A stretch of DNA of 64,000 bases from Cupriavidus sp. U2 (GTDB lineage Bacteria; Pseudomonadota; Gammaproteobacteria; Burkholderiales; Burkholderiaceae). This document shows positions 13,941-56,337 of the stretch, piece after piece. The first letter of the stretch is position 1. Every line of letters starts with the position of its first letter. A program made the position numbers and the translations under genes. The notes under the pieces are model-generated. The model was not told the DNA's origin and searched no databases. It saw only the letters and a list, made by a program, of their open reading frames with translations. The DNA is taken from contig NZ_RCOG02000001.1 of the NCBI RefSeq assembly GCF_009663685.2, positions 62,152 to 126,151 of the forward strand, read 5' to 3'.

Positions 13941-13969
13941 TTGACACCCGGGCGCATGCGTCTTATATT
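13941..13969 (+). promoter_or_regulatory. Consensus sigma-70 promoter of the argD leader
   Basis: A perfect -35 TTGACA (13941-13946), a 17-bp spacer and -10 TATATT (13964-13969). The expected start of transcription is at 13976-13977, on or next to the ATG of the leader ORF, so that ORF would be leaderless. Confidence 0.8.
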
Positions 13970-13976
13970 GGCCGCC

Positions 13977-14042
13977 ATGAACACCGCCATGATCCGACGC
14001 CGCGCACGTACGTTGCTCCCCTCCGGGGTGCCGCGCGGCTGA
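13977..14042 (+). CDS. Putative arginine-rich leader peptide of argD
   Basis: This 21-codon ORF (ATG 13977, TGA 14040-14042) lies between a consensus promoter and an intrinsic terminator ahead of argD. Codons 7-11 read Arg-Arg-Arg-Ala-Arg (CGA CGC CGC GCA CGT) and codon 20 is also Arg. The predicted transcript start coincides with the ATG, so translation would be leaderless. Known amino-acid attenuators use runs of codons for the end-product amino acid, and ArgD makes an arginine precursor, so the match between codon and pathway is meaningful. CCCC (14018-14021) can pair with GGGG (14025-14028) inside the ORF. A ribosome stalled on the Arg run would block this and free GGGGTGCC for the terminator region. 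Expression is not proven. Confidence 0.6.
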   Translation: MNTAMIRRRARTLLPSGVPRG

Positions 14043-14070
14043 CCGCAGACAGCGTTTGTTCAGGTCAACA

Positions 14071-14100
14071 AGCCACGGGCAGCCCCCGTGGCTTTTTGCT
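14071..14100 (+). terminator. Intrinsic terminator in the argD leader (putative attenuator)
   Basis: Arms AGCCACGGG (14071-14079) and CCCGTGGCT (14085-14093) form a perfect 9-bp stem with a 5-nt loop followed by TTTTTGCTTTT. It lies between the argD promoter and the argD ATG, so it must be bypassed for argD expression. A competing pairing of 14025-14032 (GGGGTGCC) with 14078-14086 (GGCAGCCCC, one bulged A, one G-U) would disrupt both arms. Confidence 0.8.
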
Positions 14101-14141
14101 TTTCTCCGTCCCTCTTTTCGTGCCGATCCCAGGAGTCCGCC

Positions 14142-51420: not shown

Positions 51421-51434
51421 GTCTTATATAAGAC
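51421..51434. promoter_or_regulatory. Perfect 14-bp AT-rich palindrome upstream of icd
   Basis: GTCTTATATAAGAC is a perfect palindrome between the divergent icd and pseudouridine synthase genes, followed by the partial repeat ATAAGACC. The same 12-bp core recurs at 56320-56331 inside another promoter. It resembles an operator for a dimeric regulator that I cannot name. Confidence 0.65.
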
Positions 51435-55158: not shown

Positions 55159-56082
55159 TCAGTAGCGGCCGCAGAGCAGGTATTCCATCAGCGCCTTCTG
55201 CACGTGCAGGCGGTTCTCGGCTTCTTCCCACACCACGCTGCGCGGGCCGTCGATGACGGCGGCTTCCACTTCCTCGCCACGGTGCGCCGGCAGGCAGTGC
55301 ATGAACAGGGCATCGTCAGCGGCGCAGTCCATCATCGCCGTGGTCACCATCCAGTCCTTGAACGCGCGCTTGCGCGCTTCGTTCTCGGCCTCGAAGCCCA
55401 TGCTGGTCCAGACGTCCGTGGTCACCAGGTGCGCGCCCTGGCAGGCTTCCAGCGGATTGGCGAACACCCTCACGCGCGGCGCGGCCGATGCCGGCACCAT
55501 GGCCGGGTCCAGCTGGTAGCCCGGGGGCGCCGAGAACGTGAACGTGAAGTCGAGCCGCTCGGCCGCCTGGATCCAGGTGTAAGCCATGTTGTTGGCGTCA
55601 CCGATCCAGGCCACGGTCTTGCCGGCAATGCTGCCGCGCTGCTCGATATACGTGAAGATATCGGCCAGCACCTGGCAGGGGTGGTATTCGTTGGTCAGCC
55701 CGTTGATCACCGGCACGCGCGAATGCGCGGCAAAGCGGTCGATGATGTCCTGGCCGTAGGTGCGGATCATGATGATGTCGACCATGCGCGAGATCACCTG
55801 TGCGGCATCCTCGATCGGCTCGCCACGCCCCAGCTGCGAATCGCGCGTGTTCAGGAACACCGCATGGCCACCCAGCTGGTGGACACCGGCCTCGAACGAC
55901 AGGCGCGTACGCGTGGAATTCTTTTCGAAGATCATGGCCAGCGTGCGGTCGTGCAGCGGGTGCCATGTCTCGTAGTTCTTGAACTTCGCCTTCAGGATCC
56001 TCGCGCGGTCCAGCAGGTACGCGTACTCGTCGGCACCGAGGTCGCTGAACTGGAGGTAATGCTTGATCGGGGTTGGGCTCAT
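55159..56082 (-). CDS. argF: Ornithine carbamoyltransferase (anabolic)
   Basis: This 307-residue enzyme converts ornithine and carbamoyl phosphate to citrulline, the sixth step of arginine synthesis. The carbamoyl-phosphate loop is Ser56-Thr57-Arg58-Thr59 in FEKNSTRTRLSFE. HPCQVLADIFTYIE and MHCLPAHRGEEVE are ornithine-side motifs. The ATG at 56082 gives the canonical start (SPTPIKHYLQFSDLGADEY). There is no Shine-Dalgarno sequence; the 11 bases before the ATG are TTCTTTGTTTT. The ATG overlaps the TGA of an arginine-rich upstream ORF (56079-56207), so argF translation appears to depend on coupling to that ORF. Confidence 0.95.
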   Translation of the reverse strand: MSPTPIKHYLQFSDLGADEYAYLLDRARILKAKFKNYETWHPLHDRTLAMIFEKNSTRTRLSFEAGVHQLGGHAVFLNTRDSQLGRGEPIEDAAQVISRMVDIIMIRTYGQDIIDRFAAHSRVPVINGLTNEYHPCQVLADIFTYIEQRGSIAGKTVAWIGDANNMAYTWIQAAERLDFTFTFSAPPGYQLDPAMVPASAAPRVRVFANPLEACQGAHLVTTDVWTSMGFEAENEARKRAFKDWMVTTAMMDCAADDALFMHCLPAHRGEEVEAAVIDGPRSVVWEEAENRLHVQKALMEYLLCGRY

Positions 56083-56207
56083 AAAACAAAGAAGGCGGCT
56101 CGCTTGGGACACGCAGCCCGATTGCGCGGAAGTGCAATCCATGAGGGCTGGAGCGTGTCGCGGAGCCGCCTTTCGCGTCGCTTACGCAATGTAATTGCAA
56201 AGATCAT
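56079..56207 (-). CDS. Putative arginine-rich leader peptide of argF
   Basis: This 42-codon ORF starts at ATG 56207 and its TGA (56081-56079) overlaps the argF ATG as ATGA. Nine of 42 residues are Arg, six of them within residues 8-16 (LRKRRERRLR spans 7-16), including a rare AGG codon at position 13. An extended -10 element places the transcript start within two bases of its ATG, so it would be leaderless like the argD leader. Codons 13-15 are the 5' arm of a long hairpin whose 3' arm ends just before argF. Ribosome pausing on the Arg run would hold that arm open. The function is inferred from arrangement; the peptide has no known family. Confidence 0.6.
   Translation of the reverse strand: MIFAITLRKRRERRLRDTLQPSWIALPRNRAACPKRAAFFVL
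56083..56170 (-). promoter_or_regulatory. Long leader hairpin directly upstream of argF
   Basis: Read on the minus strand, four nested stems occur: GGCGGCTC (56170-56163) with GAGCCGCC (56101-56094), GACACGC (56159-56153) with GCGTGTC (56114-56108), AGCCC (56149-56145) with GGGCT (56119-56115), and GATTGC (56139-56134) with GCAATC (56125-56120). Together they make 26 base pairs, followed by TTCTTTGTTTT and the argF ATG. It can act as an intrinsic terminator or as a block to argF translation. Confidence 0.65.
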
Positions 56208-56212
56208 AAGGG

Positions 56213-56221
56213 ATTATTCCA
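56213..56221 (-). promoter_or_regulatory. Extended -10 promoter element of the argF leader
   Basis: TGGAATAAT on the minus strand (56221-56213) matches an extended -10 (TGnTATAAT with one change). Transcription should start 5-7 bases on, at the leader ATG (56207). The -35 is poor, as is usual with extended -10 promoters. Confidence 0.55.
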
Positions 56222-56319
56222 GCTTTGGCGAGCCCGGTCCGTTAACCTCCAGAAGCGGCACTGGCGCGCCCCTGGGGGTCACTGACAGGTTTCCGACAGG
56301 ATTCAGCCTTATGCGCAGG

Positions 56320-56337
56320 TCTTATATAAGATATAAT
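56320..56337 (+). promoter_or_regulatory. Promoter with AT-rich palindrome upstream of the DUF3579 gene
   Basis: A perfect -10 TATAAT (56332-56337) is immediately preceded by TCTTATATAAGA (56320-56331), the same 12-bp core as the palindrome upstream of icd. A TTATGC 17 bp before the -10 is a weak -35. A bound regulator would sit in the promoter spacer. Confidence 0.65.

Follow-up and report, generated by a model that had tools for sequence, protein, structure and literature searches.

Conserved arginine codons and a terminator-like hairpin upstream of argF in Cupriavidus suggest a possible arginine attenuator

The argF locus and its leader reading frame

The window, a 64,000-nt stretch of the Cupriavidus sp. 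U2 genome, carries on its minus strand (55159-56082) an open reading frame that we take to be argF, encoding ornithine carbamoyltransferase, based on an earlier sequence-based note (the original prediction) and on general knowledge of the family. Orthologues within the genus share 90-99% identity, and the best matches among named genomes were to Ralstonia sp. 25mfcol4.1 (99%) and Cupriavidus species (91-95%). The gene was recovered from 59 of 60 Cupriavidus genomes, the lone miss being a genome that is 54% complete, and 53 distinct Cupriavidus argF upstream sequences were collected for comparison across the genus.

As originally predicted, a 42-codon ORF lies directly upstream of argF (56207-56079, minus strand) with arginine at codons 8, 10, 11, 13, 14 and 16, and its TGA (56081-56079) overlaps the argF ATG (56082-56080), which by eye has no Shine-Dalgarno sequence. 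When read from an internal TTG the leader ORF has 36 codons (56079-56189, minus strand). When the 382-nt intergenic region was shuffled 2000 times, an ATG ORF with at least six Arg in nine codons close to its start arose in 18 shuffles (in 32 if any start codon was allowed), and the GC-rich 64-kb window holds 30 ORFs of this kind, 12 of them starting with ATG. The single argF leader sequence is weak evidence, and conservation of the Arg block carries the case.

Comparison with relatives indicated that the leader is a real, conserved feature. A known Rfam element was ruled out as its explanation, as no match was obtained with the window sequence or with L134, and RF02884 matched 0 of 6 argF loci. 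The whole window gave nothing at gathering score, and a relaxed threshold returned one chance-level match on the opposite strand.

The argF promoter and 5' end

A scan listed a -35 element, TCGCCA, at 56226-56231, and the -10 element, TATGAT, lies at 56203-56208, both on the minus strand. The form TNGNCA-17-TATGAT occurs in 52 of the 53 distinct Cupriavidus upstreams, L015 being the exception, and AATAATCCCTTATGAT is present in 50 of the 53. Across 66 argF upstreams from named genomes, picked by genus out of the 80 argF matches listed, the looser pattern TNGNCA-N16-18-TATRHT was found in 47. Every upstream from Cupriavidus (9/9), Ralstonia (2/2), Burkholderia (9/9), Caballeronia (8/8), Trinickia (2/2) and Mycetohabitans/Vallotia (2/2) has it, as do all but one from Paraburkholderia (15/16), whereas none does in Polynucleobacter (0/11), Pandoraea (0/3) or the Oxalobacteraceae-type group (0/4). 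These genus labels combine record titles with our own grouping; of the Burkholderia entries, L138 and L141 look more like Caballeronia, and L098 and L114, counted under Polynucleobacter, are uncultured beta proteobacteria. The -10 box is TATGAT or TATGCT in Ralstonia, Burkholderia, Paraburkholderia, Caballeronia and Trinickia, and TATAAT at the Oxalobacteraceae-type loci.

This conservation across genera places ATG 56207-56205 within the -10 hexamer, and the ATG therefore probably lies outside the transcribed RNA. The original prediction had read TGGAATAAT as an extended -10 that sets a leaderless start at 56207. Neither part held up in the comparison, since TGN precedes AATAATCCC in just 10 of 53 Cupriavidus upstreams, AATAAT stands ahead of the box in nine Cupriavidus only among the 66 named-genome upstreams, and the codons that follow the ATG (2-6) are not coding-like. 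In C. metallidurans, -10 hexamers start 11.7 +/- 0.9 bp ahead of the transcription start site (PMC9045368), and this spacing predicts that argF RNA starts near 56196, give or take 1-2 nt.

Arginine codons are constrained within Cupriavidus

The candidate leader start codon, TTG at 56187-56189 on the minus strand, lies ~7 nt from the predicted 5' end, is without a Shine-Dalgarno sequence, and is kept in 52 of 53 distinct Cupriavidus upstreams (TGG in L040). It is followed by the Arg block (56160-56186, minus strand), which, in the numbering that starts from the ATG, consists of codons 8 CGT, 10 CGA, 11 CGC, 13 AGG, 14 CGG and 16 CGC. The motif ATTGCG-Y-A-N-GCGACG was found in 52 of 53 upstreams, with ATGGCG replacing ATTGCG in L040, and ATTGCGYANGCGACG with its adjacent bases, which lie outside the hairpin stem, is near-invariant across the genus. 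The ATG of the -10 box shares its frame with the block in 50 of 52 leaders. In 49 of the 51 leaders that have the ATG, as well as, by reading, in L040, where the TTG is missing, this frame stays open across the block. The ATG frame is broken in L019 (stop after three codons) and L021 (out of frame), and L015 has no nearby in-frame ATG because an insertion separates the ATG from the block. Three leaders (L015, L052, L056) are frame-shifted after codon 12.

The insertion in L015 belongs to genome G002 (also L280), spans ~2.8 kb and sits in the leader between promoter and Arg block; by eye, from its features, we presume that it is group II intron-like.

Codon changes were counted as minimum changes on an argF coding-sequence tree for 46 of 48 leaders, with L015 and L021 dropped; the relatives are interrelated, and such parsimony counts vary with tree and alignment. 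Codons 2-6 showed 17, 16 and 8 changes at positions 1, 2 and 3, and by this measure evolve without coding constraint. Codons 7-12 showed 2, 3 and 9 changes; for comparison, argF codons 2-101 gave 40, 9 and 322. Arg codons 8, 10 and 11 had 0, 0 and 9 changes, all nine synonymous, and arginine was retained in all 46 leaders. Four amino-acid changes fell in codons 9 and 12 together and one in codon 7. Such a pattern would be expected if arginine identity matters; the evidence it offers is modest, because seven of the nine third-position changes are at codon 8 and two at codon 11, while codon 10 never changed, so that the signal rests on two variable sites.

A conserved small hairpin over the block (56189-56173) was rejected as the sole reason for its conservation. 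It is broken in L016 with no compensating change, the T/C variation at codon 8 breaks another pair, and it is without covariation support.

A terminator-like hairpin ends next to the argF start codon

A nested hairpin is present ahead of argF as predicted, but it is larger than the 26 bp between 56170 and 56094 first described: the fold extends from 56172 to 56092 on the minus strand with 31 predicted pairs, with an outer stem of 56172-56163 paired to 56101-56092 and the inner stems nested within. The T-rich tract that was said to run up to the argF ATG is seen in the window as CTTTGTTTT (56083-56091, minus strand), and a similar gap occurs in other genera. Codons 13-15 do form part of the outer 5' arm, but the arm, AAGGCGGCTC, also takes in the last part of codon 12, and the conserved Arg codons directly adjoin it. 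A predicted folding energy of -55.1 kcal/mol was obtained for the 146-nt stretch 56215-56070, compared to a shuffle mean of -38.6 (z -4.4), with 0 of 200 shuffles as stable, and among 22 Cupriavidus sequences 4 of 26 consensus pairs changed on both sides with pairing kept.

Terminator d scores were 4.1 for the window hairpin, a median of 2.5 (range -6.1 to 12.6) for the 53 leaders, and 23.8 for argD. By these scores the argF hairpin is terminator-like, not a strong terminator. Its U tract is interrupted, and a consensus terminator scan of the window did not list it. The consensus fold contained no mutually exclusive antiterminator hairpin. The small hairpin at 56189-56173 does not overlap the outer stem, and a long-range CUUAUGA/UUAUGAG pairing was discarded, its 5' half being the -10 box.

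The original prediction also held that argF is translated by ribosomes arriving from the leader. Read from the TTG, 13 of 52 Cupriavidus leader stops overlap argF (+1), 37 lie 10-65 nt upstream and 2 lie at +29. With the overlap kept in 13 of 52, leader-argF coupling is not a conserved design, and translational coupling through the ATGA overlap was dismissed. Leader stops thus range from -65 to +29 relative to argF and fall inside or past the hairpin, not ahead of a terminator.

The hairpin is shared with other genera and the Arg frame is not

We surveyed the hairpin at 46 loci from Cupriavidus, Ralstonia, Burkholderia, Paraburkholderia, Caballeronia, Trinickia, Glaciimonas and Vallotia, a set without Polynucleobacter and Pandoraea. 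At 29 of these loci a hairpin confined to the leader ends 7-11 nt ahead of the argF ATG. At the other 17 (e.g. L107, L119, L134, L147, L155, and, among the short leaders of Cupriavidus, L085 and L086) the lowest-energy hairpin ran into the promoter, so those loci alone do not demonstrate the stem. Stem sequences vary by genus, being AAGGCGGC/GCCGCCTT in Ralstonia, GGCGGCAG/CTGCCGCC in Glaciimonas, ACGGCGG/CCGCCGT in Burkholderia and Paraburkholderia, and CGGCGGC/GCCGCCG in Caballeronia, where the gap between stem and ATG is less U-rich (CTTGCGTTTC).

A Candidatus Vallotia endosymbiont (L159) retains the hairpin and the TATTTGTTTTTATG end ahead of argF with an altered stem sequence. Retention of the hairpin despite this alteration suggests selection on the element.

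The 5' arm found in the Burkholderia group, CGACGGCGGCGCCGT, would translate as RRRRR. We considered this block as a homologous sensor and rejected it, since no in-frame ATG, GTG or TTG follows the -10 box at any of the 29 loci with the block and the frame is not kept. The distance from -10 to block varies modulo 3, with loci split 6/4 in Paraburkholderia, 7/1/1 in Burkholderia and 4/2/2 in Caballeronia, and the 2 Trinickia loci in one class; six Paraburkholderia loci with a different block were left out of this test. Likewise, none of 11 Ralstonia loci has an in-frame start for its AGG CGG codons. The original prediction had proposed absence of the ORF or stems from close relatives as its refutation, and alignment of argF upstreams for in-frame Arg codons as a check. 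The relatives divide on this point: the hairpin is common to other genera but the ORF is absent there, and in-frame Arg codons are conserved in Cupriavidus but not beyond it. Among the loci compared, the Arg reading frame at argF is found in Cupriavidus only.

An arginine leader at argD and the lack of ArgR

A second Arg-run leader in the window precedes argD on the plus strand (13941-14103; MNTAMIRRRARTLLPSGVPRG). Its promoter, TTGACA (13941-13946), 17 nt, and TATATT (13964-13969), is followed by an ATG at 13977, seven nt past the box, a TGA stop at 14040-14042, and a strong terminator at 14070-14103. Arg-run ATG ORFs were found in 40 of 53 argD upstreams, a set that left out L197 (43% identity) and 13 further argD matches, and a terminator-like hairpin follows the ORF in 39 of 53. 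Among control upstreams of argB, argC and argG, 8 of 40 have an Arg-rich ATG ORF and in 2 of 40 such an ORF precedes a hairpin; these two resemble the ends of ribosomal protein genes. The 14 argD loci without both features include three from Cupriavidus that are Arg-rich but fail the strict rule (L191, L193, L194), and loci from other genera without such a leader (e.g. L244, L245, L272, L277).

Leaders of this type in relatives (L254-L279, L195, L196) are exemplified by MNRIQSELRRRRSPLP and MLSLQTNLRRRRSLLP, and an arginine attenuator at argD that is widespread in Burkholderiaceae is a well-supported prediction. In Burkholderia-type genomes this leader corresponds to the Rfam family RF02884 (BcKCsr7), which matched 10 of 14 argD loci scanned, with E values of 3e-16 to 2e-35; the argD leader of the window itself scored E 0.011, below the gathering score. 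Since these 10 loci coincide with a family annotated as 'Burkholderia sRNA 7', the comparison suggests that the BcKCsr7 sRNA is the terminated transcript of the argD attenuator.

A search for the arginine repressor ArgR (PF01316) was negative in all 100 family genomes and all 25 relatives, and positive in 9 of 14 control genomes. A comparative study describes ArgR as conserved in many gammaproteobacteria and absent from other classes (PMC5343134). By eye, no argD-like leader was seen at the 11 of 34 retrieved argC/argG loci and the 3 of 8 retrieved argB loci that were read; two argB loci (L286, L285) have Arg-containing short ORFs of no clear form.

The predicted attenuator at argD raises the prior for one at argF. 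Both leaders place a run of Arg codons ahead of an arginine gene in one genome, in hosts where no ArgR was found, but the kinship suggested originally, through a shared leaderless start and Arg-codon sensor, is functional at most, as start, stop position and distribution differ. Unlike the argF leader, the argD leader has its ATG ~7 nt past the -10 box, consecutive RRR(R) and a stop ahead of a strong terminator. It also occurs beyond the genus, whereas the argF Arg frame was found in Cupriavidus only and the argF leader matches no Rfam model.

A possible attenuation mechanism and its alternatives

By comparison of genomes, argF in Cupriavidus has a conserved promoter, a conserved hairpin and conserved Arg codons, in hosts where ArgR was not found. 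The explanation that we consider best, with a confidence slightly short of an even chance, is a Cupriavidus-specific arginine attenuator whose outer stem is opened by the stalled ribosome itself. It would be built on a hairpin that also precedes argF in other genera of the Burkholderiaceae. Here we infer that the leader is translated, which start codon is used, that transcription terminates at the hairpin and that the outcome responds to arginine. The argF RNA would begin near 56196, and a ribosome initiating at or near TTG 56189 would translate Arg codons 8, 10, 11 and 13-14. When charged Arg-tRNA is scarce, the ribosome would stall and mask the 5' arm AAGGCGGCTC, preventing the outer stem from forming beside the U-rich tract and freeing RNA polymerase (or the argF start region). 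With ample arginine, the ribosome would clear or leave the block, the full hairpin would form and argF would be off. If the stalled ribosome acts as the antiterminator, an alternative RNA hairpin is unnecessary.

Stall modelling led us to propose this direct masking. If the ribosome is taken to cover 15 nt, starting at the first A-site base, a stall that places codon 10 or 11 in the A site removes the outer stem, and the inner stem stays, away from the U tract. The idea that ribosome occupancy of the Arg run controls the hairpin is consistent with the Cupriavidus comparison and plausible, if unproven. The synonymous-only variation of codons 8, 10 and 11, the lack of covariation support for the small hairpin over the block, the failure to find ArgR in the family genomes and relatives searched, and the Arg-run leader at argD in the same genome also argue for the attenuator. 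Set against it are the weak start, with a TTG so close to the predicted 5' end and lost in L040, a codon signal drawn from two variable sites, the three frame-shifted leaders, and the lack of a comparable leader at argB, argC and argG where these were read by eye. In addition, a modelled stall with codon 8 in the A site leaves the outer stem able to form, the U tract is imperfect and the terminator score low, and other genera have the hairpin without a translatable Arg run.

This last point is the starting point of the main rival, which we regard as a serious if somewhat doubtful possibility: the hairpin would be a peptide-independent element of the argF 5' UTR common to several genera, acting as a partial terminator or, together with the U-rich gap, enabling a start without a Shine-Dalgarno sequence, and the Arg run would be a GC-rich by-product. 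The position of the hairpin 7-11 nt ahead of the ATG in 29 of 46 loci, with stems that differ between genera, fits this reading, as does the Burkholderia CGACGGCGGCGCCGT block, which resembles an Arg run but has no in-frame start (0/29) and varies in spacing modulo 3. However, it does not account for the near-invariance of ATTGCGYANGCGACG and the bases that follow, all outside the stem, or for Arg codons that vary at third positions only.

Leaderless translation from ATG 56207 with coupling to argF through the overlapping stop is very improbable. The ATGA overlap and missing Shine-Dalgarno sequence in the window, the ATG frame open in 49 of 51 leaders and in L040, and the frequency of leaderless mRNAs in C. 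metallidurans (4.67% of primary transcription start sites; PMC7563307) would fit it, but the ATG is part of a conserved -10 box, codons 2-6 are unconstrained (17/16/8), the overlap is kept in 13 of 52 and the frame is broken in L019 and L021. We give equally little credence to a terminated or processed argF leader acting in trans as a small RNA, which the BcKCsr7 identity of the Burkholderia-type argD leader encourages by suggesting that such leader RNAs can accumulate, but which is countered by the lack of any Rfam family matching the argF leader.

Relation to known leader systems

In the leader-peptide attenuators of trp, his and leu, a short ORF with a run of end-product codons precedes a terminator-like hairpin. 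The argF leader shares with them a short ORF of cognate codons, a terminator-like hairpin and a biosynthetic gene downstream. It differs in being specific for arginine, in a weak start, in codons that overlap the terminator's own 5' arm, in an ORF that enters or crosses the hairpin, and in that no alternative antiterminator hairpin was found.

Two systems with arginine-related leaders offer further comparison. In the Salmonella speF leader (orf34), ribosome pausing at Arg codons of the leader ORF likewise alters RNA folding, but speF makes putrescine from ornithine and does not serve arginine biosynthesis, its transcription starts 516 nt upstream, and its outputs involve Rho, RNase G and mRNA structure (PMC6386406). 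Pseudomonas aeruginosa carA has a leader peptide ahead of an arginine/pyrimidine gene, but there it is pyrimidine control that possibly acts by attenuation, arginine control is transcriptional, and the organism is a gammaproteobacterium (PMC4997734). Within the retrieved text of the open PMC literature, we found no report of an arginine leader ahead of argF or argD in betaproteobacteria, and no settled account of how betaproteobacteria control arginine synthesis without ArgR.

More broadly, it is conceivable, though we would sooner doubt it, that Burkholderiaceae, where no ArgR was found, control arginine synthesis by Arg-codon attenuation in two forms, a classical leader at argD and a Cupriavidus type at argF with codons in the terminator 5' arm and the stalled ribosome as sole antiterminator. 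If true, attenuation at argD and argF would answer how ArgR-less betaproteobacteria control this pathway, add a new amino-acid specificity to the attenuators of biosynthetic genes, and reinterpret the Rfam 'sRNA' BcKCsr7. The argF design would also be unusually compact, its sensor codons being the terminator arm.

Other observations at arginine genes

The window holds two copies of an exact palindrome, TCTTATATAAGA (0.00 expected), one at 51422-51433 beside an isocitrate dehydrogenase-like gene and the other at 56320-56331 in the intergenic stretch ahead of argF. Of 22 named loci tested, 12 also have it upstream of argF (9 Cupriavidus, 2 Ralstonia and 1 Pandoraea; the other 10 are without it), and it may be the binding site of a regulator. 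In L209, what we presume by eye, from its features, to be an intron end similar to that in the G002 argF leader lies upstream of argC. Cupriavidus argC itself (L210 and others) falls under the TIGR01850 cut-off in 11 of 11 genomes, and genomes of other families pass it (6/6), which suggests that Cupriavidus argC belongs to a different subfamily.
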